Below, one piece after another: positions 2 to 26,617 of a stretch of DNA of 64,000 nt. The translations under genes were made by a program, and so were the position numbers. Numbering within the stretch: position 1 is the first letter of the stretch; each line of letters opens with the position of its first letter. Below the pieces are notes generated by a model, which saw nothing but the letters and a program-made list of their open reading frames with translations, had not been told where the DNA came from and ran no database searches. The DNA is taken from contig NZ_CP059732.1 of the NCBI RefSeq assembly GCF_014117325.1, positions 8,073,501-8,137,500 on the forward strand, written 5' to 3'. This DNA comes from Spirosoma foliorum. GTDB taxonomy: Bacteria > Bacteroidota > Bacteroidia > Cytophagales > Spirosomataceae.

Positions 2-1276
2 TATGATGATCTGAACCAATACGATAAAGCATTAGCCTACTACCGGATAGCGCTTAAACACGCGAAAGAGTCTGAATCAGAGCTATTACAGGCGGACATT
101 TTAGTTAATACGGGCTTAGTTTTACGAGAGGCCAAACGATTTGAGGAGGCAAAACGCCCCATAGAGCAAGCTTTGGTTCTCAATAAGAAGCAGGAAAGTA
201 AAGGGGCGATGGCTACCGATTATTTCAATCTGGGGCAGGTGTATGAAGATCTTAAAGACTATAAGCTGGCGGAGCAGAACATGAAAAAGGCGCTGGCCCT
301 GGCTAATGAACTGGAGGACAATACGAAAATAGCCATCTATACGCAGGGCCTGGCCGATCTGTACGGTGGCATGAAGGACTTCCAGCAGGCCTATGTTTTC
401 CAGCTCGAACGAAACCAACGTATGGATTCTACGACAACTATTCGTACTACAGCCGAAGTACAACGATTGATGGTCAAATACGAAACGGAAAAGAAAGAAG
501 CCCAAATTAAACTCCTTCAGCAGCAAGCCAAACTCAATCAGCAGGAGCATGAGCGTACTCGCTTCCGAACCAATGTGCTGATTGCCGGTGGTGTGCTTCT
601 GCTTTTATTGGGAGCCAGCGTGAGCGCCTGGTTACTCAACCGATCTCGGCTCCAACGGCTCGAAGAAGCGCAGCAGTTGCGTAAACAGATTGCCCATGAT
701 CTTCACGACGAGGTAGGTAGTACACTCAGTAGTATTTCGATGCTGAGTGGCCATACCGATACGTTGCTGAGTCAGAACCGACCCGAAACGGCCCAGAAAA
801 TGGTTCAGAAAATCTATACCGACGCACGCCAGATTCTCGAATCGATTGATGAAATCATCTGGACCATTAACCCCGGCAACGACTCCCTGCATCGGATTGT
901 TCTGCGATTGCAGGAATATGCGCAGCCATTGATGGAGTCGAAAAATATTCAATGCTCGTTCCAGATCGATGCTGCTTTGGAAGAAGCACCCATCTCAATG
1001 GATGTGCGCCGAAACCTGTATTTGATTGGGAAAGAGGCTATTAATAATCTGGTTAAATACTCTGGGGCTACACAGGCAACGGTTCGTTTTGAGCGAAAAA
1101 ATAGTCAGCTCCAGGTCGTGATTCAGGACAATGGCCGAGGATTTGATCCGGACCAGCCCAGCGAACGAACGGGGCAGGACAGCATGAAGCAGCGCGCCAA
1201 ATCGGTGGGTGGGTCGTTAGAAATTCAGTCGTCGCCGGGTCAGGGCACGCGCCTTCAATTGGTAGTTAGTTCGTAG
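2..1276 (+). CDS. TPR sensor histidine kinase, NarL/HisKA_3 type (5' partial)
   Basis: The reading frame is open from the first bases of the window, so the start lies upstream; 424 residues are visible. The N-terminal part is made of tetratricopeptide-like helical repeats (for example YDKALAYYRIALKHA and YKLAEQNMKKALALA), followed by a coiled coil and one membrane segment near FRTNVLIAGGVLLLLLG. Next comes a HisKA_3 dimerisation box with the phospho-acceptor in QIAHDLHDEVGS, and an HATPase domain with the N-box near KEAINNLVKYSG and the G-box DNGRGF. No periplasmic sensor domain is visible. Such kinases of Bacteroidota usually sense through the TPR region and phosphorylate a NarL-type regulator, here the gene starting 80 bp downstream. 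The ligand is unknown. Confidence 0.9.
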   Translation, partial: YDDLNQYDKALAYYRIALKHAKESESELLQADILVNTGLVLREAKRFEEAKRPIEQALVLNKKQESKGAMATDYFNLGQVYEDLKDYKLAEQNMKKALALANELEDNTKIAIYTQGLADLYGGMKDFQQAYVFQLERNQRMDSTTTIRTTAEVQRLMVKYETEKKEAQIKLLQQQAKLNQQEHERTRFRTNVLIAGGVLLLLLGASVSAWLLNRSRLQRLEEAQQLRKQIAHDLHDEVGSTLSSISMLSGHTDTLLSQNRPETAQKMVQKIYTDARQILESIDEIIWTINPGNDSLHRIVLRLQEYAQPLMESKNIQCSFQIDAALEEAPISMDVRRNLYLIGKEAINNLVKYSGATQATVRFERKNSQLQVVIQDNGRGFDPDQPSERTGQDSMKQRAKSVGGSLEIQSSPGQGTRLQLVVSS

Positions 1277-1318
1277 AGGTCATACGTTTATCCGATTTAT
1301 CGGTATTCGAAGTTGCCC

Positions 1319-1326
1319 TATTTTTG
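1319..1326 (+). promoter_or_regulatory. Candidate -7 box (TATTTTTG) for the response regulator gene
   Basis: TATTTTTG is an exact match to the Bacteroidota -7 consensus TAnnTTTG and lies 30 bp before the start codon of the regulator gene. No clear TTG -33 element is seen at the usual distance, so the call is tentative. It would let the regulator be transcribed separately from the kinase. Confidence 0.35.
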
Positions 1327-1356
1327 CCAGATAAGCAGCCAGAGCCTACATAGCTT

Positions 1357-1983
1357 ATGATCCGCATTTCTATTTTCGATGATAATGACTCGCTTCGGGA
1401 AACACTCGCCCTGATTTTCGACGCAAGCGACGACCTGATTGTGACTGGGCAGTATCCGAATGCCCTCCAGGCTGTTGAGGCTGTTCTGATGAATCAACCC
1501 GATGTAATTCTGATGGATATTGATATGCCTGGTCGGACGGGTATTGAAGCCGTTAAACTTATTCGTCAGCAGACAACCCGACCCAAAATTCTGATGCTGA
1601 CTGTGTTTGAAGACGTGGAACGCATTTTTGCGGCTGTCTCGGCCGGGGCTGTAGGCTATTTATTGAAGAAAACGCCCGCCGATAAGATCATGGATGCCAT
1701 TCGTGAAGTGATGAATGGGGGAGCAGCCATGACGCCGTCCATTGCTCTGAAAGTACTGGAGGCATTTCGGCAACCCAAGGCCGATAACTTCCTGCTCACT
1801 GACAAAGAAAAAGAAGTACTACAGCGACTCGTGGAAGGCGACAGCTACAAGCTGATTGCGCACCACTGTGGTATCAGTATGGGTACGGTTCGCACGCACA
1901 TTGTCAATATCTACGAAAAACTGCACGTCAACTCCAAGTCCGAAGCGGTAGCGAAAGCGCTAAAAACAGGGTTGTTCAAATAG
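1357..1983 (+). CDS. Two-component response regulator, NarL/LuxR type
   Basis: This 208-residue protein has the standard two-domain layout. The receiver domain (about 1-120) carries the acidic pocket at D8/D9, the phospho-acceptor D54 in VILMDIDMPG and the conserved lysine in GYLLKKTPAD. The C-terminal LuxR helix-turn-helix (about 143-205) begins LTDKEKEVLQRL and contains the recognition region GISMGTVRTHIVNIYEKL. It is very likely the partner of the TPR kinase that ends 80 bp upstream. Targets cannot be read from the sequence. Confidence 0.93.
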   Translation: MIRISIFDDNDSLRETLALIFDASDDLIVTGQYPNALQAVEAVLMNQPDVILMDIDMPGRTGIEAVKLIRQQTTRPKILMLTVFEDVERIFAAVSAGAVGYLLKKTPADKIMDAIREVMNGGAAMTPSIALKVLEAFRQPKADNFLLTDKEKEVLQRLVEGDSYKLIAHHCGISMGTVRTHIVNIYEKLHVNSKSEAVAKALKTGLFK

Positions 1984-2932: not shown

Positions 2933-2986
2933 CCGCTACAAATTCTATCCACACCATTCTCCACCTAGCCTGCTTTCGTTTAACCT

Positions 2987-4456: not shown

Positions 4457-4661
4457 TGGCTACCGCGCCGTATTGGGTAAAACTACGTATTGATTCAATC
4501 CTTAGTTAATTTTCTTGTTTTGGTAATATATTGATTAACAGTAAGTTGTGTATGATTGGCGTATTCGCGTAGTTTCCCTATCATACATTTATCCGATTGA
4601 TGCACGCACGAGTGCTGAGTAGTTTTGATACAAGATATTCGAGTAAAATCTGTGTCAAAGA

Positions 4662-6356
4662 ATGCGCTCAACTCTACTACTTCTACTTTTCGGGTTTTGG
4701 CTGAGTTGCCCAGTGTGGGCTCAGACCGATTCACCCAGTAGTAAATCGGTGCCTGTAAAGGTATCTGGTGGCCTAAATGCTTACGCAGGCTTTTATACGG
4801 CGACTGGTATCGAAGCCCGCAACCAGACTTCGCCTTTTGGGATAAGCGGTTCAGTAACCGTAACATTACCGGGCGGAATCTCCCTTCCATTTTCGGCTGT
4901 GCTGGGAAATCAGGGCAGCAGCTTCCGGCAACCTTTCAATCAGTTTGGCGTTTCGCCAACCTATAAATGGGCTACTGTTCATGCGGGCTACCGCAACGTA
5001 TCCTTCTCACCGTTCACGCTGGCTGGTCATACCTTTCTGGGCGGTGGGGTTGAACTAAATCCTGGTATGCTACGGCTGGGGGCCGTTTATGGCCGGTTCA
5101 ATAAAGCCATCTCCACCAATATCGCCGAACCCGATATTATTCCTGCCTATCAGCGAACGGGTTATGCCGTAAAAATTGGCTACGGTAAACCCACGAATTA
5201 CGTTGACCTGATTATGCTTCGGGCCAAAGATGATTCGGCCTCTATTGCATCGGTTCCCCAGTCGACCTCTCAAGCGGTGGCCCCCGCCGAAAATCTGGTA
5301 GTTGGTCTTACTACCCGATTGCTGATTTTGAAGCATATTACGGTTGAACTGGACGAAGCTGTAAGCGCCTATACGCGCGATGTTCGAAGCTCTGTAGTAG
5401 AAACAGAGGGAAGCAATCCGGTCGTACGGTTGTTCGGCAAACTGATTACCCCTCGACTCGCTACTCAACTTACCCAGGCAACCCAGGCATCTATTGGTTA
5501 CAAGGGCCAGATGGCGGGTATCAAACTTCAATACAAGCGCATCGATCCGAATTTCCAGACGATGGGCGCTTATTATTTCCAGAGTGATATTGAAAGCTAC
5601 GCCATTGCGCCAAACCTCACGCTAATGGAGGGGAAACTTCGCTTGTCGGGGAGTTATGGGGTTCAGTATGACAACCTTGCCAATAACAAAAGTGCCCGCA
5701 CCGGGCGAACTATTGGCTCTCTGACCGCTTCCTATAACCCGGCGACTAAATTTGGTATTGACGTACAACTGTCTAACTATGGCATCAGTCAGCAAGCCGG
5801 AATTCGACCTATTATCGACACCCTGAAATTAGCTCAGAACAATCTATCGGCTACGGTAAATACACGCTATACAATTCAAAAAGAAGATGTTATGCAGGTG
5901 TTTACCTTAACGACCACCTACCAAAAGCTGAGTGATCTGAACGCGAGCACGGCTAACCAGACCGAAAATAACAACGTCAACCTGAATCTGGGTTATTTCT
6001 ATCAGCAAACGACCACGGGCTGGGGCTTCAACGGCATGCTGTCGTACACGCAGACACAACTGCCCATTGCCGTTGGCGATACGAACCAAACCGTCCGGTT
6101 TTTCGGCCCGACGCTTGGCGCTACCCAATCCTTTCTCGACAAAAAACTAACGACCTCATTCAACGCCAGTTACCTCGTCAATCAGCAGTCGGGTATAACG
6201 GGGAAGGTCATAACGGTTTCGGCTAATGGTGGCTATCAGGTAGCCAAACGGCAAACACTAACCGTCTCGCTCAACTATCTGAACTCAAATACAGGTATTC
6301 AGGAACAGACTTTCAACGAACTCAGAGGAAATCTTGGCTATGGAATCTCGTTTTAA
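4662..6356 (+). CDS. Putative outer-membrane beta-barrel protein, first gene of the surface operon
   Basis: This 564-residue protein has a Sec signal peptide (MRSTLLLLLFGFWLSCPVWA, cut before QTDS). After it come many alternating-hydrophobicity strands rich in Gly, Tyr, Thr and Asn, ending in GNLGYGISF with a terminal Phe, as expected for an outer-membrane beta-barrel. The sequence contains no plug or TonB box. Its last codons overlap the start of the giant gene that follows, so the two are probably translationally coupled. As the first gene of six encoding exported proteins, a role as outer-membrane anchor or pore for the others is a reasonable guess. The family is unknown to me. Confidence 0.75.
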   Translation: MRSTLLLLLFGFWLSCPVWAQTDSPSSKSVPVKVSGGLNAYAGFYTATGIEARNQTSPFGISGSVTVTLPGGISLPFSAVLGNQGSSFRQPFNQFGVSPTYKWATVHAGYRNVSFSPFTLAGHTFLGGGVELNPGMLRLGAVYGRFNKAISTNIAEPDIIPAYQRTGYAVKIGYGKPTNYVDLIMLRAKDDSASIASVPQSTSQAVAPAENLVVGLTTRLLILKHITVELDEAVSAYTRDVRSSVVETEGSNPVVRLFGKLITPRLATQLTQATQASIGYKGQMAGIKLQYKRIDPNFQTMGAYYFQSDIESYAIAPNLTLMEGKLRLSGSYGVQYDNLANNKSARTGRTIGSLTASYNPATKFGIDVQLSNYGISQQAGIRPIIDTLKLAQNNLSATVNTRYTIQKEDVMQVFTLTTTYQKLSDLNASTANQTENNNVNLNLGYFYQQTTTGWGFNGMLSYTQTQLPIAVGDTNQTVRFFGPTLGATQSFLDKKLTTSFNASYLVNQQSGITGKVITVSANGGYQVAKRQTLTVSLNYLNSNTGIQEQTFNELRGNLGYGISF

Positions 6357-9300
6357 ATCAGATAAACCGCAAAGAGCGCAAAGAATCTTAGTGACCTTTG
6401 CGATTATCTTGGCAGTCTTCGCGGTTAAGCCTGCATTCTCGCAGACCTTTCCTCTGCAAGTTCAGGTGAGCGTTATGCCGCCTTATAGCGCCTATTTGCA
6501 GGATTATCCCGGTGCTGGTCAGCAGGTGCGGGTGTTCATTATCAATACCAGCCGTACGAGTTATCAGGTTCGGCTAACGGGTCAGTTAACGGGCGATAAT
6601 GGCATCGAGATTCGAACCTCGCCTAGTTACCGTCCACCCCGGCCCGTTACGATACCACCCGGCCAAACGCTGCTTACCCGAAACGATCTGGAAGGTCTTT
6701 TCGATCTGAATCAGGTGGAGGTGATGGGTATCAATAAAAATCTGTTATCTAGAGGGTTACCCTTGCCCGATGGTACGTACCAGCTTTGCATTCGGGCCTA
6801 CAACGAATCGGCTACCAACACGGCTGTAACTGCTTTTGGGCAGCCCCTTTCCTCCGAATTTCCGCTGGGTTGCTCGGCTCCTATTGTTGTGAAATCAGTG
6901 GAGCCGCCTATTCTGATTTCGCCCCTTTGTGATGCGGAAGTAACGGCTACAAACCCACAGGCCGTTGTCTTTACCTGGACACCGCCCGCAGGTGTATCAC
7001 CCGCGTCGGTTGAATACACTTTACGGATTGTTGAATTACCTCAAACGAATGTAGACCCTAACGTATTTATCGACGCGGTTGCGTTACCCAAGTCGGGCGT
7101 CGAGGTGCGGAATTTACGAACGAGTACGTTTTTGTATGGCCCAACCCAGCCCCCTTTGCAGGTCGGTAAGCGATACGCCTGGCGAGTGCAGGCGATTGAT
7201 CGTTCGGGTAAACTAAATTTTCAGAACGACGGCAAAAGTCCCGTGTGTTCGTTTACCTATGGCACTGGCTTACCGGCAGTAGCTCAGAAGCCAGGATTCG
7301 AACTGGTTCAGAAACCTACAGTTATCTTGCCGATTCCCGGCCTGGACGCACAGGATACGCCACCAGCAGGCGCTACCGCTATAGCCGACAAAATCCCCGC
7401 TCCATCGACGCCTTACGAACAGAAAATTACCAATTGTAACTGCAAAACCCCACCTTCGAACACAACCGGAAGTGTAGCTGATAACCAGACGGCCGTCAGC
7501 AAGAAGCAATTAACAGTCGCTGGTTTTACGGTCGATCTAGCAGGCGTACAGTTGGATGGCGAACAGAAAATTAACGGTACGGGCACCGTGCAGCTTCCGT
7601 ACGTGGGCGGAGGGTACATTAAGTTACGGGTGTCGCTCAGTAAGGTGCAATGCAATTCGGGTGGGCAAGTCATTGCGGGTAAAATTCGTGGATTATTGCA
7701 ACAAAACGCCAGCCTGTTGCCCGGTTACGACAAACCCGACTTCAGTGCACTTGACCTGAAACCAGCTGACGTAAGTAGTATCAGTAAAAAGCTGGATGCC
7801 ATAAAAGATCAGGTAAAGGAAAGTGTTACCAATTCGAAAAACAGTGTTGGCTGGGAAATGCCGCTGGGTGTATACACCGCTCATGTAGACGTGGCGGTCA
7901 CCAATGTGGTCTTTGAGCCTGCTCAAGCGTATTTCGATGCCGTTACCTGGTTCAAAGTTGCCAGCGCACAGTTTGGGGGCGTTCCGTTGAGTGCAACGAA
8001 AGTATGCATGAGTCCTGATAAGCCAATCTGTGGCGACATGACGCTTTATCTGGGACTGGATATGCCCTTATCCAAACTGTTGACGCTGAAAGGAGCCACT
8101 ACAGACGTCAATAATAAGTCTGCAAACAATCTGGATTTCAAGAAGATTACAAACGTCAATCTGACCAATTGGGACTTCAAAACGTTCCATATTGTCGCTG
8201 ACCTAAAACCACCCGGCCTAAAAGAAGCCAACGGCGCGAACAAGGATAAAGACGTAGCATTTACGTTGGTCTACGACTCACCAAAGGCCGATCTGAACGA
8301 CTGGACCGCTACGGTCGAATTTCCTGATTTTTACGTCGATAAACTCTCCCGCGATTTCATCTTTTCGATGGATGGGAAGCCCGGTATTTACGACCAGTCA
8401 GAGTCGCCTGATGAATACACGGCCAAGTTGCCCAGCGATTATCCCCAGACTGGTCAGAAGCCAGGGCCTGAATGGACAGGGTTGTTTTTCCCCAAGCTGA
8501 AAGTGACCACAACCGTGTTGAAGTCGCTGAACCAGGGTAAGCCGTCAACGGTGTCCGTCGAAAACCTGATTTACGATAACAATGGCTTTACGGGCGCCTT
8601 CATGGCCACGCCGGTTATTTCGCTGGGCGAAGGATCGCTGGATGGCTGGTATTGCTCAGCCGACACTCTAAAGCTTAACCTGCTGATGAGTCAGTTTAAG
8701 AATGCACGGCTGGCCGGACGCGTTGTTATGCCCATCTTTAAGTACAATCCCGACGAGAAGAAGATGGAAAAGGCGTCGATCTGGCCCTACACCTGCACCC
8801 TCTCGAAAGATGAAAAACCCAACAGCGGCCTGAAGTACCAGTTCCAGATCGTTTCGCCAAAAGAAGATGTCAATGTAAAGCTTTGGGCAGCAAAACTATC
8901 GGTGCTCGACGGTACAAATATCACCGTTGGCAATCAGGGAAATAAAGATGGAGCATTCAATGCCTCCGTTACGCTCAATGCCAAGCTGAGTGTGGATGCC
9001 AAAATCGTGTCGCCGGGCATGACCATTATGGGCATGAAGCTGCAAAGTTCCCCTCCTGACGGGACCAGCTATTTCACGTCTGGCTCCATTAATTCCTCGT
9101 TTGCATCTCCCCAGAAATCGCTGCTGGCCGCTGCCGACGACGAAGGTTTCCCGGTTACGATTAAGGGCGTTAGTCTGGATAAGACAAAGGGGCAGACAGG
9201 CAAATACGATTTCAAATTCACCGGCGACATTACACTAATGGAAGGGAATATCCACGCGGCCATTACCCCTTACGTTCGGTTTAAAATTGGATTCGGTTCC

Positions 9301-12300
9301 AACAAACGCCCCGACTGGGATTTCGATAAAGTAGGGGTCGATTCGGTGGGTATTCATGGGAATCTGAGCTTTATGCGAATCGACGGCACTGCGGAATTTT
9401 TCGACAATGAGGCTCCCTATGGTACTGGTTTCAAGGGTGATCTGAACGTCAAATTACTAGGCGCAGGCTTTTCGCTGGGAGGCTATTTTGGGCGGGTCAA
9501 TGGGTTCCGATATTGGCAAGTAGGCGGCAAAGCCGATCTGCCTGCGCCCGTTCCCATTCCGGGTACGCCCCTAACGCTGGCCGCTTTCGGTGGTGGTGCT
9601 TTCCACAACATGATTAAGGAAACCCAGACCGACGCTAATGGAAAACCCAAAGTAGGGGCACCCGTTAAGTTCACGCCCAGCCAGAAACACGACGGGTTTG
9701 AAGTGGCCGTAGAAGTGACGGTGCAAACCAAAGACCTGCTCGATATGAACGGGGTAATGGCTGCAACCGTGAGTACCGATAACGGCTTCCATTTAAGCGA
9801 TTTACGATTAGACCTGGATGCGGCTCTGTTTGGCCCTGACCGCGACAAAGCGCTGGCAACAGGGGTTGGCTATATCGATGTCAATTTTGACAATGGTTAT
9901 TTCGATAGCAAGTTCGGGCTTAACCTCCACTATGAACCTGCCGGTGGCGTATTGAGTGTGACTGGGAACGGGGATCTAGGTTTACACGTCTCTTTTCCAC
10001 CGTCTCTGGGTAATCCTGATCAAAACCAGGATTTTAGCAAAGAGCAGCCTGGTGATTGGTACTTCTTCATTGGTCTACCCGATGCAACGCCCTGTGGCAA
10101 TGCCGATGACTGCTTCGCCAGTTCAGAACGGGTAAAGCTTTCTATCAAGGTGAAGAGTTTAGGGGCGCTTACGTTTGGGTCGTATTTTGTGATGTACCAC
10201 AACCTAAAACCAGATGGCGTGACGGTATTGCCGCCACCACCCTGGGGTATGTCGGCGGCTGATCTGACTGCGCTGGGCTACAAAGGCGGTCAGTTGGCCG
10301 GGACCGACGCGTTAGCTTTCGGGTCAGGTTTTGTTACCGACGACAAGTTTACATTTGGACCTTTTGAAGCCAAATTCCATGCCGCGTTTGGTTTTGATCT
10401 GGCTCTGCAAAAAGTAACGGCCCCCTGCGGTAATGGACAAATACCAGGCTTTAATGGCTGGTATGCCAATGGTCAGATGTACGCCGACCTGGCGCTGACA
10501 CTCGGTATCAACATCGACATCTGGATTTATTCGGGCTATCTGGAACTCCTCAAGGTACAGGCTGCGGCCCTGCTCGAAGGGGGTATGGTGAATCCGATCT
10601 GGATACATGGCAGCATTCTGTTACGTTATCGGGCTTTGGGTGGCCGCATCAAGGGCAGTACTACTTTCGAGATGTGGTATAACAAAGATGAGCAATGCAA
10701 ACCGGCTTTCGAACAACCCAATCCGTTTGCCGATCTGCCCATCATTGCGGGTATGACGCCCGAAAACAACAGCAAGAATGTATCGGTCATCGCCCCTTAT
10801 TATGCCGAATTCAGCTACCCTGTTCGGACCTTGATTCAAATCAATGATGTTGATCCTGAGTCAAGACAGCCTGTTTCGAGTTTCCGGACATTCCGGTTGG
10901 ATTTCACGAGTGGTACACCTGCCAATCCGTTTGTAACTACCCAGGTGCAGGCAAGTACCACAAACCCGGCTTGTGCGCTCGATAACAGCGGTCGGCTGCG
11001 TTTCGGTAATGATGCCGATGGAGGTGGCAACTTCAATGTAACGTTCTTCCGCGATGCTACACTGCCACCCAATGCTAAGTTTAACGTATCGCTGACTGTA
11101 ACCGTCAATTTATTGAACACGGGCACGAATAAATATGAGCCCTACCAGTATAAAAATCAACTGGTTTTCCAAACTAAATCGTACACGTTCACAACGGGCG
11201 AATGTGTTAGTTCGCTCAGCCAGGATGGAGCGGTACCGTCGGTTGCGTACTCCTATCCGTTCGAAGGACAGCGGTATTACACCATTGGCGACGGCGGAAT
11301 CTTCGGTTACGTTGAACTAGCCAGTAATTTTGGCTGCTGTCTCGACAAAATTGAGAGCGACAAATATTACAAGCTCAGTGTGCGTTATACCGCGCTGAAA
11401 GGGAATAAGTTCGACAAAAAGGACCCCAGCAGTGTCTGGACGAACAGCAGTGTCAAGTTCGACGGGAAGCTATTGCGTTTCGGTATCCCGCTTACATTCC
11501 TGCAAAAGAAAACCTTATACCGCATCGAAATCTTCCGAGAACCGACCGATGCGCTGGTGGCCGAACAGAAGAAAATCATTGCTCAGCAGAAGGGTAAAAT
11601 TCGCAAAGATCTGGAAGACAAGTATTTGGGTGGGCAGAAAGCCGAATTTGGCTTTGGTAGCGATGCCACAGCTTCATCTAAACCCGGATTGGGGCCAGGG
11701 ACTGGTGTATTGGGCAGTAAAGTATCGGCTGTGAATGGGTTGGCGCAGGGGTATAATTCGGCCTACATTGATCAGACTATACAGAGCGGGAACAGCAGTC
11801 AGGGAAATGCCATCGGCGCAAAAGTAACCGGACAGTCGGCCGGGTCGATGACGGATATCAAGCTGGGCAAGGGTAAGAGCGACGAGGAAGTCGATGTAAA
11901 AACCCAGTTGGAACAGCCCGTTTACACCTATTATTTCCAGACCAGCCAGTATAACACACTGGCCGAAAAACTGAAAGCTAGCCCATTCCTGACGGCTGAA
12001 CAGAAAACCGTTCGGACGGATAATATCGAAGCATATACCATTCCTGTTCAAAATCCCGAAGGCTTTGATAGCTACGAGTTGCTTTGGAAGAAGTTGCCTA
12101 ACGGTAGCGCGTTGCCCCCGTTAGTGCTTCAAAAAGTGCTGGATACAACGAATCCCTGGTTTGCCGATTTTGTGAAACCAATGGTTAACCTGATCAATGG
12201 TCTGTCGAGCTATCAGTTGAGTAATGGCAATATTTTGTTCAAAACGACGGCTAATACCACTGCTGCTACAGTCGATTATGAGCAACTGATGAGGCAGGTA

Positions 12301-12381
12301 GTCCTCTTCAACCAGGGCGGTTTCGATAACGCTCAGACACCCATTTCAAAAAATAGCCTGAAAGGCATTACGCAGAACTAA
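6340..12381 (+). CDS. Giant secreted protein (2013 aa) of the surface operon, function unknown
   Basis: The likely start is ATG 6340 (a TTG lies 6 bp upstream), inside the end of the preceding gene. The signal peptide has a basic start, the core ILVTFAIILAVFAV and an AFSQ cleavage region. An Ig/FN3-like region follows (about 30-310; note the fibronectin-like words VVFTWTPP and RYAWRVQAIDRSG), then a Cys-containing linker with NCNCK. A very long beta-rich body (about 390-1450) repeats strands such as FRYWQVGGKADLP. An Ig-like region begins near ITPENNSK-type sequence (GMTPENNSKNVSV), and the C-terminal 500 residues are mixed and Gln/Lys rich. There is no enzyme motif and no T9SS sorting domain at the end. 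A structural or scaffold role at the cell surface is inferred. The gene stops 1 nt into the next start (TAATG). Confidence 0.85.
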   Translation: MESRFKSDKPQRAQRILVTFAIILAVFAVKPAFSQTFPLQVQVSVMPPYSAYLQDYPGAGQQVRVFIINTSRTSYQVRLTGQLTGDNGIEIRTSPSYRPPRPVTIPPGQTLLTRNDLEGLFDLNQVEVMGINKNLLSRGLPLPDGTYQLCIRAYNESATNTAVTAFGQPLSSEFPLGCSAPIVVKSVEPPILISPLCDAEVTATNPQAVVFTWTPPAGVSPASVEYTLRIVELPQTNVDPNVFIDAVALPKSGVEVRNLRTSTFLYGPTQPPLQVGKRYAWRVQAIDRSGKLNFQNDGKSPVCSFTYGTGLPAVAQKPGFELVQKPTVILPIPGLDAQDTPPAGATAIADKIPAPSTPYEQKITNCNCKTPPSNTTGSVADNQTAVSKKQLTVAGFTVDLAGVQLDGEQKINGTGTVQLPYVGGGYIKLRVSLSKVQCNSGGQVIAGKIRGLLQQNASLLPGYDKPDFSALDLKPADVSSISKKLDAIKDQVKESVTNSKNSVGWEMPLGVYTAHVDVAVTNVVFEPAQAYFDAVTWFKVASAQFGGVPLSATKVCMSPDKPICGDMTLYLGLDMPLSKLLTLKGATTDVNNKSANNLDFKKITNVNLTNWDFKTFHIVADLKPPGLKEANGANKDKDVAFTLVYDSPKADLNDWTATVEFPDFYVDKLSRDFIFSMDGKPGIYDQSESPDEYTAKLPSDYPQTGQKPGPEWTGLFFPKLKVTTTVLKSLNQGKPSTVSVENLIYDNNGFTGAFMATPVISLGEGSLDGWYCSADTLKLNLLMSQFKNARLAGRVVMPIFKYNPDEKKMEKASIWPYTCTLSKDEKPNSGLKYQFQIVSPKEDVNVKLWAAKLSVLDGTNITVGNQGNKDGAFNASVTLNAKLSVDAKIVSPGMTIMGMKLQSSPPDGTSYFTSGSINSSFASPQKSLLAAADDEGFPVTIKGVSLDKTKGQTGKYDFKFTGDITLMEGNIHAAITPYVRFKIGFGSNKRPDWDFDKVGVDSVGIHGNLSFMRIDGTAEFFDNEAPYGTGFKGDLNVKLLGAGFSLGGYFGRVNGFRYWQVGGKADLPAPVPIPGTPLTLAAFGGGAFHNMIKETQTDANGKPKVGAPVKFTPSQKHDGFEVAVEVTVQTKDLLDMNGVMAATVSTDNGFHLSDLRLDLDAALFGPDRDKALATGVGYIDVNFDNGYFDSKFGLNLHYEPAGGVLSVTGNGDLGLHVSFPPSLGNPDQNQDFSKEQPGDWYFFIGLPDATPCGNADDCFASSERVKLSIKVKSLGALTFGSYFVMYHNLKPDGVTVLPPPPWGMSAADLTALGYKGGQLAGTDALAFGSGFVTDDKFTFGPFEAKFHAAFGFDLALQKVTAPCGNGQIPGFNGWYANGQMYADLALTLGINIDIWIYSGYLELLKVQAAALLEGGMVNPIWIHGSILLRYRALGGRIKGSTTFEMWYNKDEQCKPAFEQPNPFADLPIIAGMTPENNSKNVSVIAPYYAEFSYPVRTLIQINDVDPESRQPVSSFRTFRLDFTSGTPANPFVTTQVQASTTNPACALDNSGRLRFGNDADGGGNFNVTFFRDATLPPNAKFNVSLTVTVNLLNTGTNKYEPYQYKNQLVFQTKSYTFTTGECVSSLSQDGAVPSVAYSYPFEGQRYYTIGDGGIFGYVELASNFGCCLDKIESDKYYKLSVRYTALKGNKFDKKDPSSVWTNSSVKFDGKLLRFGIPLTFLQKKTLYRIEIFREPTDALVAEQKKIIAQQKGKIRKDLEDKYLGGQKAEFGFGSDATASSKPGLGPGTGVLGSKVSAVNGLAQGYNSAYIDQTIQSGNSSQGNAIGAKVTGQSAGSMTDIKLGKGKSDEEVDVKTQLEQPVYTYYFQTSQYNTLAEKLKASPFLTAEQKTVRTDNIEAYTIPVQNPEGFDSYELLWKKLPNGSALPPLVLQKVLDTTNPWFADFVKPMVNLINGLSSYQLSNGNILFKTTANTTAATVDYEQLMRQVVLFNQGGFDNAQTPISKNSLKGITQN
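6365..6426. repeat. Inverted repeat inside the coding region, encoding the signal peptide of the giant protein
   Basis: The segment starts aaccgcaaagagcgcaaaga and ends with cttcgcggtt, so its ends are inverted copies (aaccgc/gcggtt, with further partial pairing). Its wording resembles an intergenic 'ACCGCAAAGAGCGCAAAG...CTTTGCGGTT' repeat that I recall as common in Bacteroidota genomes. Here it is translated as the positively charged and hydrophobic parts of the export signal. Confidence 0.6.
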
Positions 12382-13559
12382 TGAAAACGAAAAATCAACT
12401 CCAGGCTTACGGAATTACCGGGCTACTTTCGCTGATTATCAGCCTGGTGTATCCATCGGCAGGATTGGCTCAGTACAGCCTAAAGATGAGTCAGCAGGAT
12501 ATGGCGAAGGTTGCCAATACCGCAATCACCGTGGACGATATGAGTCAAAAAACGGTGCCGATGACTTTAGGCGGACAGGCATTTGTGAGTACGCCCGGAA
12601 AATATGGCATGATGTTTTTGAATGCGCCCGTATATAAAGCCTATGTCGAACGACTGGAAGACAATATCGATGTAATGATCAGTACACTCAATGAAGCGTA
12701 TCCACAGCGTAAAGCGCTAATCGATAAACTTTTAGCCGTGGCAGGAGGCCTAACCTACGAGTATCATATGGCCGTTGGCACACAAACGGGGCAGCCTAAA
12801 AGCATGAGTCAGGCTGGTCGGGAAAAGTTTATGAAGAGTATTACCACATCGTTGAATCTGGATTTCTACACAGACGATTTTCTCTCGCTGAATGATGACT
12901 ATCGCAATTATTTCTTTCAGAATAGGTTGAGCAGCGCAGCAACGGCTTCGGGAGAAGTGTCTATTACGCAATACAATCCGAATATGACCTATATGGCTTC
13001 TCAGGGTAGCGACCCCAGCCGGGGAAAAGACCGGATTCGGGACACCGCCAAAGACTGTGTGGCTCTGGTGCTGAGTGAAGTCAAGAAAAATGAGAGTTTG
13101 GGGGCTGTCAGTCAGGCAGTGTCTAGTGCGATAGATGTGGTAGGTTCAGTTGTTTCAACGGGCTCAGTAGCGAACAGCGCACAAGTGAATACGCTTTTCA
13201 AAACATTTACGCGAATTAAAAGCGGCAGTTACTGGCAACTGACCAAACCGGGCTCGGTTATTGGCTTTTATCTCAAACTACTACCAGGCGCTACACTGGC
13301 TTCAGACGTAACGAATAAAGACGGCACCGGCGACCGCTACGTCGATGAATACGCGCTGAAAAATGGTATTCCGCCCTTTCCATCGCCTTACGCGCTGAAT
13401 CTGGCTAAATCGGTTAGTAATGACTTTTCGGGGGTAGGCGTAGTAACGGTTCCTGGCGGCACCAACGGCGTCATTGTTGTTCAACCCGGTTCGTCATCGG
13501 GTAATACGTCTAACGGTCAATCATCGGGCACGCCTGCTCCTCCAACTCCTATTCATTAA
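12381..13559 (+). CDS. Exported protein of unknown function, third gene of the surface operon
   Basis: This 392-residue protein begins with a Sec signal peptide (hydrophobic core GITGLLSLIISLVY, cleavage after GLAQ). The mature part is mostly helical and polar, with few cysteines. It ends in a low-complexity Gly/Ser/Asn/Pro tail (about 370-392) that looks like a flexible linker rather than a sorting domain. Its ATG overlaps the stop codon of the giant gene by one base, which points to translational coupling. No family is recognised. It probably works together with the giant protein on the cell surface or in the periplasm. Confidence 0.8.
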   Translation: MKTKNQLQAYGITGLLSLIISLVYPSAGLAQYSLKMSQQDMAKVANTAITVDDMSQKTVPMTLGGQAFVSTPGKYGMMFLNAPVYKAYVERLEDNIDVMISTLNEAYPQRKALIDKLLAVAGGLTYEYHMAVGTQTGQPKSMSQAGREKFMKSITTSLNLDFYTDDFLSLNDDYRNYFFQNRLSSAATASGEVSITQYNPNMTYMASQGSDPSRGKDRIRDTAKDCVALVLSEVKKNESLGAVSQAVSSAIDVVGSVVSTGSVANSAQVNTLFKTFTRIKSGSYWQLTKPGSVIGFYLKLLPGATLASDVTNKDGTGDRYVDEYALKNGIPPFPSPYALNLAKSVSNDFSGVGVVTVPGGTNGVIVVQPGSSSGNTSNGQSSGTPAPPTPIH

Positions 13560-13588
13560 CGGCTCGACTCTTTTTCAGAAACCTGATC

Positions 13589-15715
13589 ATGAAAGTATTC
13601 GTCACGCTTCTTGTTCTGTTCATGGGTATGTCGGGCTCGAGTCTGATGGCCCAACGTGCGCCAGGCCCAACTACGCCAGCGGCTACCCGTCCTCCTGCTC
13701 AAACGGCCACTTCCAGCAACGATACCCATTTCGAATTATCCATGATAGGTCGAGCCTTTGGCGACTCGGTTGTTGTTCGATGGGCTCCTCATAACATTAT
13801 TCTGTACCGCGAAATCAACCGCAGTGGCGGGTATATCTTAACGCGTAGGAGCCTGGGTGCCAATGGGCGATTACAGGTCGATTTTCAGAAAGATGTAAAA
13901 GTCTGGACACTCAACGAGTGGAAACAACGCGTTTCGCGCACTGATAGTCTGGCGGCTGCCTGCGCCCAATTGATTTACGGAAAAAGCAGTGTCCTTCAGT
14001 CGGCCAACGATCCCGTGACGCTCGATAAGCTAATGCAGCAGAAAAGTCGGGACGATTTTCAACTAATGTTTCTGCTGATGCTGGCCGATGAAAACGCGCG
14101 TCATGCAGAAGGTATGGGATTAGGATACATCGACCGGGCCGTCAAAAAAGGAGTACAGTATTTTTATTACCTAACACCCCGTTACGACGGAAAGCTGCTG
14201 TCGGTTGATGAACAAAAGGTGCTGGTTAGCAACGTGGGGCCTTATACCCGTCCGCCGATGCCAGTTGTTCGGGCAGAACAAAAAGACCACGCCATCAAAC
14301 TCGTTTGGGATCGGCAGGTTACTGACGAACTGTTTTCTGCCTATTACATTGAGCGTTCGCAGGATGGCGGACGAACATTTCGACGCATGAATCGGATGCC
14401 CTATACGCAAGCGCCGATTCAGTCGGAGCAGGCATTGTATAGCTACGTCGATTCGCTAAAACAGAATTACGTGAAATACCAGTACCGCGTGGTGGGCATT
14501 TCGCCTTTTGCCGAGCGAAGCATCCCCTCGCCCGTTATAACCGCACAAGGTGTCGACTTAACGCCACCCGTTGGCGCTCGAAACGTGCAGGCCAAACACC
14601 TGAGCGGTAGTAAAGTTCGCATTACCTGGGAGCAGCCTAGTATGTCCTCCGATTTTGCCGGGTACATTATTGCGCGGGGAAGCGACGAAAACAAACCACT
14701 GAGTCCGCTAACAAAGCAGGTACTGGGCAAAACGGTTCGTGAATACGTCGATGAAACGGCGAACCCCTACGAGAAAACATTTTACAAAGTAATTGCGATC
14801 GACACGGCGAAGAATTCGAACCCGTCGATGGCCGCTTACTGCACGTTCAAGGATGTAACGGGTCCGGCGAAACCCAAAAATTTACAGGGCTATATTGACA
14901 CAACAGGCTTTGTACGGATTGTCTGGGACCCAAACAAAGAGCCTGATATTCTGGGTTATGCGGTATTGATGGCGAATCAGGCCGACCATGTGTTCACCAA
15001 TCGTACCAGCAGCTATCTGCCAACCAGTGTTTTCGAAGATCGCACTACGCTGACCACGTTAACGAAGAAACTGTATTACCGCGTTGTCGCCTACGACAAA
15101 AATTACAACCCAAGTCCACCATCCGATATGCTGGAATTAGCTCGGCCCGATAAAGTGGCACCGACCAGTCCGGTTATTAGCGATTACGTGGCCAGCGACA
15201 CTGCTATTGCCTTACGATGGGTAGCCAGCATCAGCGAAGACGTTCGGGAGCAGGTTTTGTATCGCCGGGGGGCAAATACCGAGAACTGGCATGAGTTAGG
15301 CAAGTTAACGCCGAAACAAAATAGCTACGTAGATCAGCAGGTAAAACCAAATACCCAGTACAGCTATATGCTCGTAGCAATTGATTCGGCCGGGTTGCGA
15401 TCTGGCGAATCATTTCCGCTCAATACGAGCACGTTACAGATGGTGCCTCGTCCGGCTAAGCAGCTTAGCGTGCAGGTAAGTCCCGATGGTAAGACCGTTG
15501 TCTTGAACTGGAAGCACCCTGATCAATACGCTCGTTTTGTCATTTACCGGTCCAACGAGGCCAAGATTTTACGCTCGTATGATGCCGTTAACCGTGAGCT
15601 GACCTTTACGGATCGAGCCGTTCAGAAAGGACAATATGAGTACGCGGTTAAAGTAATTTATCAAGATGGGCGTGAGTCGGGACTTTCGAATCGGGTAAAA
15701 ATTGACGTCAACTAG
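13589..15715 (+). CDS. Exported fibronectin type III protein, fourth gene of the surface operon
   Basis: A 708-residue protein with a Sec signal peptide (core VFVTLLVLFMGMSGSSLMA). A Pro/Thr linker and a unique N-terminal region (about 45-215) follow. The rest is a row of about five fibronectin type III modules, recognisable by the repeated words ITWEQPS, RIVWDPNKE, ALRWVAS and VLNWKHP and by the tyrosine-corner pattern FYKVIAIDTA. The last module ends at the C-terminus (YAVKVIYQDGRESGLSN), without a sorting domain. The gene begins 30 bp after its neighbour and ends 2 bp before the next. FN3 arrays in bacteria usually mediate binding or act as spacers; the ligand is unknown. Confidence 0.88.
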   Translation: MKVFVTLLVLFMGMSGSSLMAQRAPGPTTPAATRPPAQTATSSNDTHFELSMIGRAFGDSVVVRWAPHNIILYREINRSGGYILTRRSLGANGRLQVDFQKDVKVWTLNEWKQRVSRTDSLAAACAQLIYGKSSVLQSANDPVTLDKLMQQKSRDDFQLMFLLMLADENARHAEGMGLGYIDRAVKKGVQYFYYLTPRYDGKLLSVDEQKVLVSNVGPYTRPPMPVVRAEQKDHAIKLVWDRQVTDELFSAYYIERSQDGGRTFRRMNRMPYTQAPIQSEQALYSYVDSLKQNYVKYQYRVVGISPFAERSIPSPVITAQGVDLTPPVGARNVQAKHLSGSKVRITWEQPSMSSDFAGYIIARGSDENKPLSPLTKQVLGKTVREYVDETANPYEKTFYKVIAIDTAKNSNPSMAAYCTFKDVTGPAKPKNLQGYIDTTGFVRIVWDPNKEPDILGYAVLMANQADHVFTNRTSSYLPTSVFEDRTTLTTLTKKLYYRVVAYDKNYNPSPPSDMLELARPDKVAPTSPVISDYVASDTAIALRWVASISEDVREQVLYRRGANTENWHELGKLTPKQNSYVDQQVKPNTQYSYMLVAIDSAGLRSGESFPLNTSTLQMVPRPAKQLSVQVSPDGKTVVLNWKHPDQYARFVIYRSNEAKILRSYDAVNRELTFTDRAVQKGQYEYAVKVIYQDGRESGLSNRVKIDVN

Positions 15716-15717
15716 CT

Positions 15718-18700
15718 ATGAAATCACGCATAGGTTTTCTTGTACTGAGCTTGATGCTGCTGGCGTCAACTCATCTGTTGGCGCAGTCCAATGCCCCAAC
15801 GAATCTGTCGGGGACGGCACCGGCATACAATCGGGTGGTGCTTACCTGGAAAGACAATTCGACGAACGAAACCAAGTTTGAGATCGAACGAAACAACTTC
15901 GCCAGCTATACCAAAATCGGTGAAGTTAGCGCCAATGTGACAACCTATACCGACAATACAACTGGCGGAGGAACTTACCGAGTTCGGGCCGTTTTTGCGA
16001 CGGGAGCGGCTTCGGGTTATTCCAACGAATTCACCATTACCACACCTCCCGAACCACCAGGAATGCCAACGGGCCTTACGGCAACCCTGCAAAACGGTAG
16101 TGTGGTGCTTAGCTGGAGCAATGGCTCAGGCGGTACGGCGTCAACTTATCGGGTCGAGCGGTCTGTACAAGGTGGGGCCTATAGCCTATATCAGACCGTT
16201 TCGTACAGCCGGGCGCCTACTTTGACAGACAATGGCGTACTTGGTGGCCAGCAATATTGTTACCGAGTTCAGGCAGTGAATACTGGAGGCTCATCGGGCT
16301 ATGCCGGACCTGCCTGCCAAACAATTCCACTCACGCCGACCAATATCAAAAATTTGACCGCAACCACGTTAAGCAGTAGTTCCATTAAGCTAAACTGGAC
16401 GCCTTACGGGAAAGAATCGGGCATTACGATTGAACGACGCAAAGGACAAACGGGCAATTTTGATAAGATCAAAGACTGGCTGGCCGATAGTGGCGAATTT
16501 ACCGATACGGGTCTGGAATCGAACACGGAATACTGCTACCGGATTGGTGAAAGTGGGCATGACTATTCGGCAATAGTTTGTAAAACGACCCTCCAAAGCA
16601 TCCCAGCGGCTCCCGGCCGAATGCAGGCTCAAGCGGTGGCTTATAACCGAATCGATCTGCAATGGGCTGACCTAAGTAATAATGAAACCCGATTTGAGGT
16701 TGAACGATCTACAAATGGCTCGGCGGGTACGTATACTAAACTTGCTGACGTAGGGGCTAACACGACTAAGTACAGCGATCAGAGTGTTCAGGCAAGTACG
16801 CAATACTGCTATCGGGTGCGCGCTGTGAACGATGCGGGTGCCAGCGGTTATACCGATCCGCCTGCCTGCGCTACGACGCCCGCACCTCCCGCAGGCGTTC
16901 CGCAAAATGTAGCGGCTGTAGCAACGTCAACTACCCAAATTAATGTGAGTTGGGACGCGGTAGCCGGAGCTAGTGGCTATCAACTGGAACGCAGCCCGAA
17001 TGGTAACGATGGCTGGCAACAGATTGGCCCTTCGCCTGCGACAGCCACTACATTTTCCGATAATGAACGGACGCCCAATACGCGCTATTACTATCGGGTT
17101 CGGGCGGTGAACAGTGCTGGTGTTCCGGGCGATTATTCTGGCGTTGCGAATGCCATTACGCCCGATGTGCCGCCTGCCGATCCAGCCCGGCTGACTATTA
17201 CCTCATTTACCTACAATCAGGTTAGCCTGCAATGGGCTGATCTGTCGAACAACGAAGCTGGATTTCAGATCGAACGCTCGACAGATGGGGCCAACTGGAG
17301 CAAAATTGCGGATGCGGGCGCAAACGCGACGGCCTATGCAGATCAATCTGTACAGCCACAGACGCATTATTATTACCGCATTCGGGCGGTCAATGCGGCT
17401 GGTTCGTCGAACCCGTCCAATGTCGTAGACATAACCACGCCTGCTGGTCCGCCCGTTGCCGCTCAGGATTTGAAAGCCACGGCCACGTCAACTACGCAAA
17501 TCAGTTTGACCTGGAGTGCTATCGCCAATGCGACCAGTATCGTCATTGAGCGGAGTCCAGACGGGTCAAGTAACTGGAATTCGCTCACAACGGTGGCCGG
17601 TACGGCAACGAGCTATACCGATAATGGCCTGACGCCGAATCAACACTATTATTACCGAATCCGGGCGACTAATGCGAGTGGAACAGGTAATAATAGTAAC
17701 GTCGCTGATGCAACCACTCCTGACGTACCGCCAACAGCGCCAACTAATCTGACGATTACGTCGGTGACCTACAGTCAAATCAGTTTGCAGTGGGCCGACA
17801 ACTCGACCAACGAAAGTGGGTTTGTACTGGAACGATCGCCTGATGGGGCTACGTTTACCAAGCTCATCGACCTGCCTGCCAACACGACTACGTATAACGA
17901 TCAGACGGTTGCCCCCCAAACCCATTACTATTACCAAGTACGGGCCGTTAACGCAGCCGGGCCATCGGGCAATTCCAATGTGGTTGATGCCACAACACCC
18001 GTTGGTCCACCTACAGCAGCCCAAGACCTGAAAGCCACAGCTATTTCAACGACCCAGATTAGCCTGGCTTGGACGGCTATCCCAAATGCAGCCACCATCG
18101 TTATTGAACGCAGCCCTGACGGCGTTAGCAATTGGACTTCTGTCTCGACGGTAGCGGGTACTGCAACCAGCTATACAGACAATGGCCTGACCAAGAATCA
18201 GCATTATTATTACCGCATTCGGGCAACTAACGTGAGCGGAACGGGGAATAATAGTAACGTCGCCGATGCGGCTACGCCCGATGTCCCGCCAGCCGCTCCC
18301 GCCCGACTGACCGCTACTGTCGTATCGACAAGCCAGATCAACCTGGTTTGGGCCGATCTGTCGAATAACGAGAGTGGTTTCGAGATCGAGCGGGGTACTA
18401 GCGCGACAGGCACCTTCACCAAGATTATGGATGTACCTGCCAATACGACTACGTATGAAGACAAGAACCTGACCGACGATACGCAGTACTGCTATCGGGT
18501 ACGAGCGAAAAATGCGGCTGGCCCTTCGGCTTATACCGATGCTGCCTGCGCCACAACACCTCTAGCCCCGCCAGCAACTCCGACTAATTTAGTCGCTCAG
18601 GTGTTTGATTACGATCAGATAAAACTGACATGGGCAGCCGTGAGCGCTAAAGCGGTTACTATTGTCATTGAGCGGGCTTCAAATCCTAACGGGCCCTTTT

Positions 18701-19116
18701 CTGAGCTTAAGCAAATCCCGGCTTCGCAGACGAGCTATGTGGACATGGGTTTACAGGAGTTTACAACCTATTATTACCGGATCAAAGCCGTAAATACAGC
18801 GGGTAGTTCAGATTATTCAAATGTCGCAACGGCGCGGGTTGAAGAAGTGATCATCGCTGTGGAAGATGAGCTGGAAACCCATACCACGCTTTTTGTGAGT
18901 CAACGTACACTACACGTCATTACAAACTGGTTTACAACGGCCCAGACGACGATTCAGCTTCATACAGCCAGTGGGGGAACTGTACTGACCGACAACCGAA
19001 AGGTACGTCCGGCTGATCGCTGGGACTACAATCTCGATACCCTGCCTACGGGTCTGTATATCATTAATATTGTTGCCGATGGGCGCAAACTTGCCAAACG
19101 TATTCTGCTGCCATGA
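15718..19116 (+). CDS. Large fibronectin type III surface protein with T9SS sorting domain
   Basis: The 1132-residue protein has a signal peptide (core IGFLVLSLMLLASTHLLA). I count eleven FN3 modules of about 85-95 residues, each with a strand like INVSWDAV or VSLQWADLSNN, a 'xIERS' word and a YYYRIRAVN tyrosine corner. Two consecutive two-module units (about residues 480-665 and 670-855) are near copies. The last 75 residues form a separate domain ending LPTGLYIINIVADGRKL then AKRILLP, the pattern of a type A C-terminal domain exported by T9SS. The protein is therefore probably secreted across the outer membrane and attached to the surface. It overlaps the next gene by 4 nt. Confidence 0.9.
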   Translation: MKSRIGFLVLSLMLLASTHLLAQSNAPTNLSGTAPAYNRVVLTWKDNSTNETKFEIERNNFASYTKIGEVSANVTTYTDNTTGGGTYRVRAVFATGAASGYSNEFTITTPPEPPGMPTGLTATLQNGSVVLSWSNGSGGTASTYRVERSVQGGAYSLYQTVSYSRAPTLTDNGVLGGQQYCYRVQAVNTGGSSGYAGPACQTIPLTPTNIKNLTATTLSSSSIKLNWTPYGKESGITIERRKGQTGNFDKIKDWLADSGEFTDTGLESNTEYCYRIGESGHDYSAIVCKTTLQSIPAAPGRMQAQAVAYNRIDLQWADLSNNETRFEVERSTNGSAGTYTKLADVGANTTKYSDQSVQASTQYCYRVRAVNDAGASGYTDPPACATTPAPPAGVPQNVAAVATSTTQINVSWDAVAGASGYQLERSPNGNDGWQQIGPSPATATTFSDNERTPNTRYYYRVRAVNSAGVPGDYSGVANAITPDVPPADPARLTITSFTYNQVSLQWADLSNNEAGFQIERSTDGANWSKIADAGANATAYADQSVQPQTHYYYRIRAVNAAGSSNPSNVVDITTPAGPPVAAQDLKATATSTTQISLTWSAIANATSIVIERSPDGSSNWNSLTTVAGTATSYTDNGLTPNQHYYYRIRATNASGTGNNSNVADATTPDVPPTAPTNLTITSVTYSQISLQWADNSTNESGFVLERSPDGATFTKLIDLPANTTTYNDQTVAPQTHYYYQVRAVNAAGPSGNSNVVDATTPVGPPTAAQDLKATAISTTQISLAWTAIPNAATIVIERSPDGVSNWTSVSTVAGTATSYTDNGLTKNQHYYYRIRATNVSGTGNNSNVADAATPDVPPAAPARLTATVVSTSQINLVWADLSNNESGFEIERGTSATGTFTKIMDVPANTTTYEDKNLTDDTQYCYRVRAKNAAGPSAYTDAACATTPLAPPATPTNLVAQVFDYDQIKLTWAAVSAKAVTIVIERASNPNGPFSELKQIPASQTSYVDMGLQEFTTYYYRIKAVNTAGSSDYSNVATARVEEVIIAVEDELETHTTLFVSQRTLHVITNWFTTAQTTIQLHTASGGTVLTDNRKVRPADRWDYNLDTLPTGLYIINIVADGRKLAKRILLP

Positions 19117-19568
19117 AAAAGCAAACGCCTGTTATATACCTGTTGATTACAGCTATTCTTGGGAGTCTGGCAGCCTGTCAGCCCAAAACGGTTACGCCCA
19201 TTACGTCGCTGATTAACAAAGTCTGGAAAGCCAACACCGTAAAAGAAGCCGATTTATTGGTGTTTACGCTGGGTGCTACCAATAATATTAAACCCGGCTA
19301 CACGAACTTTCGGCTCGACCTGAGTAGGCCCGATACCGTGCGGTTGAAAGACGTGGACGGCCGATTAACCGTTGGCACCTGGACCGTCTCGACCGATAAC
19401 AAACGACTGATTTTGTCGAATCTAAACCCGAAGCCAACCAACACCGGCGGCAATATTGAATATTATATTCTGAGCGAACCCGATGGACTGTCGTTAAGCT
19501 TGGAACGCACCGCTGAAAGCCGGAAGACGGGGAATACGATTGATCAGTATGCGTTGATACCGGAGTGA
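19113..19568 (+). CDS. Small lipoprotein, last gene of the surface operon
   Basis: A 151-residue protein whose signal peptide ends in the lipobox LAAC (ITAILGSLAACQPK), so it should be lipid-anchored. The mature part is a compact beta-rich domain with 'VWKANTVKE' near the start and 'GTWTVSTDNKRLILSN' in the middle, reminiscent of the lipocalin-like lipoproteins of Bacteroidota. The start codon overlaps the stop of the FN3 gene (ATGA), so it is translated with the operon. Function unknown. Confidence 0.83.
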   Translation: MKKQTPVIYLLITAILGSLAACQPKTVTPITSLINKVWKANTVKEADLLVFTLGATNNIKPGYTNFRLDLSRPDTVRLKDVDGRLTVGTWTVSTDNKRLILSNLNPKPTNTGGNIEYYILSEPDGLSLSLERTAESRKTGNTIDQYALIPE

Positions 19569-23150: not shown

Positions 23151-23206
23151 GTTTAGACGTTGTGGAGCCAACTCCTCACTTTTGGGGATAGATATACAGT
23201 TACTAC

Positions 23207-23237
23207 TTGTATTCGAACAGGGAAAATTGTTATTTTG
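23207..23237 (+). promoter_or_regulatory. Candidate promoter of the PPIase gene
   Basis: A TTG at 23207-23209 and TTATTTTG at 23230-23237 (7 of 8 matches to TAnnTTTG) are 20 bp apart, which fits the Bacteroidota -33/-7 arrangement. The start codon is 27 bp downstream. Confidence 0.4.
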
Positions 23238-23264
23238 CGGGCTAAATTGACTGTTAAAAGCGAA

Positions 23265-26469: not shown

Positions 26470-26490
26470 TCGAGTTGTTAATTATGAACA

Positions 26491-26603: not shown

Positions 26604-26617
26604 ATCCAATAAATCTA

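Follow-up and report, generated by a model that had tools for sequence, protein, structure and literature searches.

What looks like a six-gene operon of Spirosoma foliorum (+ strand open reading frames, ORFs, at 4662-19568 of a 64-kb stretch of contig NZ_CP059732.1, the whole of which we call the window) probably encodes a single envelope system whose basis is a conserved pair, an outer-membrane barrel and a giant protein that begins with a TANFOR domain. On balance we lean towards a module dedicated to the export or surface display of TANFOR proteins. The conserved outer-membrane barrel partner is the new element; TANFOR toxins as a class are already known from the report by Jana, Salomon and Bosis (2020, PMC7073777). 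The features of the operon and of its upstream region are collected in Table 1.

Table 1. Features of the operon and its upstream region (positions in the window; FN3, fibronectin type III; T9SS, type IX secretion system).
Feature	Position	Strand	Remarks
Upstream two-component pair	173..1983	+	TPR-histidine kinase, 173-1276 covered; LuxR-type response regulator 1357-1983
Promoter-like motif	4597..4627	+	TTG-N20-TAnnTTTG; ends 34 bp before barrel ATG
Barrel	4662..6356	+	564 aa; last residue F; no Pfam family
TANFOR-giant fusion	6340..12381	+	2013 aa from ATG; ORF caller starts at TTG 6334
TANFOR domain	6463..6843	+	residues 42-168; TIGR02542
FN3-like domain	6910..7284	+	residues 191-315, after TANFOR; sub-threshold fn3 at residues 199-290
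Cassette-exchange junction	7253..7278	+	homology ends at 7264, 7278, 7262 and 7253 in four Spirosoma comparisons
Giant domain	7525..11019	+	model covers residues 396-1560, with long antiparallel beta-strands; encoded separately in other loci
Variable-slot secreted protein	12381..13559	+	392 aa; different proteins here in some other loci
FN3 protein (P4 family)	13589..15715	+	708 aa; N-terminal part and FN3 domains; goes with giant domain
11-FN3 protein	15718..19116	+	1132 aa; T9SS-like tail 18916-19107; outside exchanged cassette
Small lipoprotein	19113..19568	+	151 aa; lipobox LAAC; last gene of operon

The association between barrel and TANFOR genes is close to constant. Among the best 80 of 533 confirmed barrel loci, a set that includes close species and whose counts are therefore not independent events, a TANFOR ORF lies directly downstream on the same strand in 78, with a median gap of -4 bp measured from the longest possible start. 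The gene set thus exceeds a chance grouping, and the single multi-protein system put forward in the original prediction is supported, conservation of the gene order having been the check proposed there. In 66 of the 67 loci with a complete TANFOR gene, one of the next two genes encodes an FN3 protein of the 708-aa type, as judged with a profile that contains FN3 domains; a profile of the N-terminal part of this protein alone gives matches in 44 of the 80 loci, some of them incomplete at their ends. In eight of the 67 an extra small gene stands between the TANFOR and FN3 genes, the position of the window's 392-aa gene. The exceptions are two loci without TANFOR (L055 and L063) and one without the FN3 protein (L058).

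The same linkage is found in a separately drawn sample of the order, where the barrel occurs in 33 of 148 genomes and a match to either part of the TANFOR-giant in 37, all 33 falling within the 37. Here, 34 of the 51 barrel places are less than 20 kb from a TANFOR or giant match (two on the opposite strand), one is at 22 kb and 16 have no such match on the same contig; this count rests on 61 of the match rows for the TANFOR-giant and on 51 of the 58 for the barrel, after removal of further fragments of genes already counted and of two barrel matches that were weak or short. Elsewhere in the phylum, a TANFOR match lies beside the barrel in 11 of 15 strong, hand-picked loci (L112-L126), in L119 weakly and by the FN3-like part only, and none was found beside the barrel in L113, L116, L121 and L122. 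All five genomes with a TIGR02542 match (each below the cut-off) among the 249 of family f26, which belongs to the same class, are among the 26 with a strong barrel. Finally, the two partners occur as a natural fusion (L111, 4357-7407), in which a single 1016-aa protein comprises TANFOR (residues 34-169, domain E 1.6e-5), the FN3-like domain (309-391, E 7.3e-15) and the barrel (592-1008, E 2.2e-31). Two further TANFOR ORFs follow this fusion gene.

Other layouts were also seen. In L107, L109 and L110 a distant barrel of 798-909 aa is clustered with a TANFOR-like secreted protein of 356-399 aa (E 1e-5, 2e-8 and 1e-12) and with two further proteins, of 239-247 and 729-731 aa, which in L107 are a FecR protein and a CHASE2-cyclase. 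Such a cluster suggests that the pair can serve in signalling; L108 is arranged similarly and has no TANFOR match. In L120 and L123 the barrel adjoins a particularly long stretch of TANFOR coding sequence: the ORF at 197-12622 of L120 has 4141 residues and that at 1-11348 of L123 at least 3782.

Judged by its sequence, the giant protein of the window is a divergent member of the TANFOR class. TIGR02542 matches it with E 1.8e-7 and 31.2 bits when the full-length protein is compared (residues 42-168 against model positions 7-140 of 145), and with E 1.6e-8 and 34.6 bits when the N-terminus is taken alone, both scores lying below the curated cut-off of 67 bits; it also matches 60 of 72 N-termini of related proteins, with a best E of 1.6e-17 (72 of 95, the 23 omitted by hand being mostly from genera already represented). 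The assignment follows from these two results together. The statement of the original prediction that the set matches no described system hence still applies to barrel, giant domain and assembly, and has to be given up for the N-terminus of the giant. The FN3-like domain after TANFOR is kept together with the barrel and is 84-85% identical in S. profusum and S. terrae.

In the available part of their report, Jana et al. describe TANFOR proteins as polymorphic toxins of Bacteroidetes, note that those studied elsewhere carry nuclease toxins and that T9SS substrates are enriched near their genes, and offer export by the T9SS as a hypothesis only (PMC7073777). The protein of the window shares with these toxins the position of TANFOR after a signal peptide, the large size and the variable C-terminal part, and the locus shares neighbours with FN3 domains and a T9SS-like tail and a T9SS-bearing genome. 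Unlike them, it has a sub-threshold TANFOR score and a beta-rich giant domain in place of a recognizable toxin domain, and an outer-membrane barrel partner is not mentioned for TANFOR toxins in that part of the paper. Indeed, Pfam and NCBIfam gave no toxin domain over the cut-off in the six operon products, a search that undescribed toxin domains could escape, and among 82 C-termini of the group (last 400 residues; incomplete proteins, those shorter than 600 aa and L070 dropped) Pfam recognizes a toxin domain in one (PT-HINT). A literature search without bioRxiv preprints and with few subscription papers turned up PMC7073777 alone on the TANFOR domain itself and, in titles and abstract openings, no description of a T9SS-linked toxin-delivery barrel. 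The name TANFOR also occurs once in PMC11796102 and in a consumer study.

The barrel is modelled with 25 strands, and MtrB, ushers and LptD are among its best structural matches. The ushers of chaperone-usher pili (FimD, PapC) and MtrB are likewise large outer-membrane barrels, of 24 and 26 strands; the partner of the former is a pilus chaperone and that of MtrB a multihaem cytochrome, whereas here it is TANFOR. No consistent Pfam family was found across 81 barrels, none of which matches PorP_SprF or Usher at E up to 0.1, families that we take to represent the PorP/SprF barrels and the ushers. Relatives of the barrel were found in Spirosoma, Pedobacter, Sphingobacterium, Flavobacteriaceae and metagenome-assembled genomes of Bacteroidales; among the matches listed, the closest named homologues are from Spirosoma. 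Two barrels of family f26 (L124, 13608-16067, and L125, 1895-4351) extend further at the C-terminus, by some 240 residues that look charged and helix-like by eye and have no Pfam match.

How might such a pair operate? In the L111 fusion TANFOR precedes the barrel, and since barrels of this kind normally have their N-terminus in the periplasm, the TANFOR domain may dock at the periplasmic mouth of the barrel. The barrel would then either export the attached giant domain or anchor it at the surface. The giant domain, fused to TANFOR as in the window or separately encoded, would be core machinery or cargo, and the 708-aa FN3 protein would probably serve this domain specifically, as chaperone, stalk or linker. 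Export by the type IX system is probable for the 1132-aa FN3 protein, which may make up a fibre or coat on the outside; the lipoprotein would be an accessory, and the 392-aa gene would supply the product of a variable slot. Exchange of the cassette described below would alter the displayed or delivered cargo and leave the gate unchanged. More tentatively, this module might be one instance of a phylum-wide, undescribed export system, with a barrel of roughly 26 strands, TANFOR as the signal and tip-like cassettes, through which TANFOR proteins would cross the outer membrane without the SprA translocon; giant display proteins here and toxins elsewhere would then be its cargo.

If the barrel is an exit or an anchor, it would provide Bacteroidota with a surface-delivery route beyond the listed secretion systems, and to our knowledge no list of secretion systems includes such a route; if it is instead a helper of the T9SS, it would define a new class of T9SS partner. 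In both cases the TANFOR class, whose exit is only hypothesised in PMC7073777, gains a conserved outer-membrane partner and, around this partner, an exchange of multi-gene cargo cassettes.

The second of these options supposes that the type IX system itself exports the TANFOR-giant, with TANFOR as an alternative T9SS signal and the barrel as no more than a surface anchor or an export helper, in the way that SprF is a helper for SprB. We judge it unlikely, even though several observations agree with it. SprA is present in the genome of the window (G000) and, in the phylum sample, in 100 of 100 barrel-positive genomes versus 190 of 247 overall (the 50 "strong" barrels of this comparison were hand-picked). 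This co-occurrence fits a T9SS role; it is also confounded, since 17 of the 20 listed SprA-negative genomes (57 in total) belong to one family. A T9SS-tailed neighbour is found in the operon's relatives, and the second TANFOR locus of the same genome has one with SprB repeats; T9SS export is also what Jana et al. proposed, together with the enrichment of T9SS substrates mentioned above (PMC7073777). The sorting-like end that the original prediction assigned to the 1132-aa protein is sub-threshold in the window (16.3 bits against a cut-off of 27 for PF18962 and 19.7 against 23 for TIGR04183) and exceeds the cut-off of 23 in two of three homologues (27.9 and 29.5 bits; 20.6 in the third). Against T9SS export, the TANFOR-giant has no C-terminal sorting domain of TIGR04183 or PF18962 at E up to 1, no T9SS tail was found on the 708-aa protein either, and the barrels lack the PorP/SprF match. 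Moreover, a T9SS-only route by itself leaves the near-constant barrel gene beside TANFOR unexplained.

The preferred reading, a TANFOR-specific module, is in agreement with how its parts diverge. Across 76 loci (2850 pairs), namely the window and relatives with a barrel longer than 450 aa and a complete TANFOR protein longer than 1200 aa, with L004, L005, L020 and L070 dropped by hand, rho is 0.73 between the identities of barrel and TANFOR region and 0.76 between passenger similarity and that of the FN3 protein (708-aa type), whereas the four cross-module comparisons give 0.10-0.15. Short toxin-type TANFOR proteins are absent from this set because of the 1200-aa limit. None of 2,000 permutations reaches 0.73 or 0.76 (maxima 0.20 and 0.12), and the cross-module values, weak as they are, are still beyond chance, being reached in 0, 0, 1 and 0 of the 2,000. 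For the 2526 pairs with a barrel identity below 0.5 the two coefficients are 0.62 and 0.73, versus cross values of at most 0.09; the 264 pairs whose barrel identity is 0.6 or more have a TANFOR identity of 0.52 or higher throughout, and in 126 of them passenger similarity is undetectable. One consideration weighs against our interpretation: linkage at the recombination point could account for part of this two-module pattern. Giant and FN3 protein do occur together with no TANFOR between or beside them in five loci, two with none in the stretch (L012 and L025) and three with TANFOR farther along (L015, L016 and L023).

Comparisons within Spirosoma reveal where the two modules meet. DNA of S. 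profusum (L026) aligns to the window at 4568-7264 and resumes only at 16346; that of S. panaciterrae (L029) aligns at 4568-7278 and resumes at 15760; that of S. arboris (L030) aligns at 4519-7253 and resumes at 15751, continuing to near the end of that locus; and that of S. terrae (L027) aligns up to 7262 and then in weaker blocks only, since its passenger, though of the same type, has diverged. Homology thus resumes inside the 1132-aa FN3 gene in three of the four comparisons, and the exact edge of this return is uncertain because it falls in FN3 repeats. At the protein level, S. profusum is 88% identical in the barrel, 86% in TANFOR and 84% in the FN3-like part, and no more than 30% past residue 315, while in a close relative, L006, every part is of the window's type. 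In consequence, about 8.5 kb, comprising the giant domain, the 392-aa gene and the 708-aa FN3 gene, has been swapped between Spirosoma species at a constant junction and between conserved flanks. Barrel, TANFOR region and the last two genes lie outside this cassette and are conserved, the lipoprotein being 77% identical in S. profusum and 79% in S. panaciterrae.

Rhs, contact-dependent inhibition (CDI) and other polymorphic toxins exchange their tips behind a constant N-terminal trafficking part. The same features, a constant N-terminal part, an abrupt junction and dissimilar passengers among close relatives, are found here. However, the unit exchanged in the window consists of several genes, including a matched FN3 partner, and no pair of toxin and immunity genes is seen in the window.

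The AlphaFold model of the giant domain is of modest confidence (pLDDT 75.9, pTM 0.47), and Foldseek returned LptD as the best match, with porins and ApoB100 also listed, all weak (query TM-scores of about 0.1-0.15); on these predicted folds the domain might sit in the membrane, bind lipid or form a soluble surface structure. By profile comparison, the window's passenger set matches 11 stand-alone giant genes with E 2.8e-175 over 1231 columns, the S. profusum type with E 1.6e-12 and the commonest passenger type with E 4.7e-8 over 135 columns. In L015 and L016 a TANFOR protein with a different passenger forms one cluster with a separate giant gene, the FN3 protein and the barrel; that passenger has a short match to the window type (83 columns, E 8.4e-6) and none to the stand-alone giants. 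To judge from these clusters, the giant domain appears to be a core component, either fused or separately encoded. In the slot that follows it, different species have small secreted proteins that either are unrelated or evolve very fast; the window's 392-aa protein has 11 database matches including itself, and all the named ones are from Spirosoma.

The long antiparallel strands of this model and its match to LptD raise the idea that the giant stays inside the cell envelope and forms, together with the barrel, a conduit or scaffold for lipid or glycan that reaches from the periplasm to the outer membrane and in which TANFOR is the linker. The position of TANFOR in the L111 fusion, and the L107 cluster with its FecR and CHASE2 cyclase proteins and no toxins, would also suit this arrangement. 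We nonetheless consider it quite improbable, given the modest model and the low TM-scores; exchange of the cassette between species would be unusual for a housekeeping conduit of the envelope, and nuclease toxins are found on TANFOR proteins elsewhere (PMC7073777).

The original prediction had favoured a surface adhesion or capture machine. An adhesive role is possible: the products are rich in FN3 domains (41.3 bits for the 708-aa protein and, summed across 11 stretches, 232.1 bits for the 1132-aa one, so both FN3 proteins of that prediction were recovered), one has a T9SS-type tail and the large domain is exchangeable. Direct support is lacking, as Pfam and NCBIfam identified no adhesin or binding domain beyond FN3 in the six products. 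An adhesion machine whose barrel has no role in secretion appears very unlikely to us, because it leaves unexplained both the linkage and fusion of barrel and TANFOR and the recurrence of these parts, in the second locus, next to a TANFOR protein that seems to be of the toxin type. Export or display of exchangeable cargo is the reading that the evidence favours first.

This second locus lies at contig positions 8738000-8771900 of the same genome (L004, L005 and L106). Barrel and giant gene are each split there into two ORFs, one barrel match having internal stops; an FN3 protein is also present, as is a protein with SprB repeats whose T9SS tail scores above the cut-off. Its TANFOR protein has 1197 aa and, by eye, a zinc-protease-like motif (TIGR03952, 19.7 bits where the cut-off is 208). 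Parts of the TANFOR protein recur in further ORFs, one of which has a sub-threshold YwqJ-deaminase match (17.4 versus 25.9 bits), and another ORF encodes endonuclease V. The row of partial toxin-like ORFs is accompanied by what may, from its position, be an immunity gene. We infer that this is a toxin locus; if so, the same parts also accompany a toxin-type TANFOR protein.

As to the layout of the operon, the six + strand ORFs are all present where they had been predicted, their packed junctions are confirmed (TAATG at 12379-12383 included), and the signal peptides and the lipobox were recognized on reading by eye. The pattern TTG-N19-21-TAnnTTTG, presumably that of Bacteroidota promoters, has a single + strand instance in the window, and its presence alone weighs little, since 0.85 instances are expected by chance. 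When 25 of the 80 best relatives were compared, the motif started 52-73 bp upstream of the barrel match in eight (four Spirosoma, Fibrisoma, Larkinella, one Fibrella and Runella); it was not found within 250 bp in the remaining 17, including a second Fibrella and every Dyadobacter tested. The upstream kinase and regulator have Pfam matches to HisKA_3, HATPase_c, Response_reg and GerE, and relatives of both are found upstream of the barrel in several loci, Spirosoma included, so that this pair may possibly regulate the operon.

Between the regulator and the barrel (2237-3745), two small secreted-looking ORFs of 231 and 252 aa have matches in only two and one of the loci compared, respectively. 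A gene for a SurA/PPIase-type foldase (23160-25385) lies a few kb downstream of the operon, near a redoxin-family gene, and two adjacent RraA-like genes occupy the - strand at 25537-27586.

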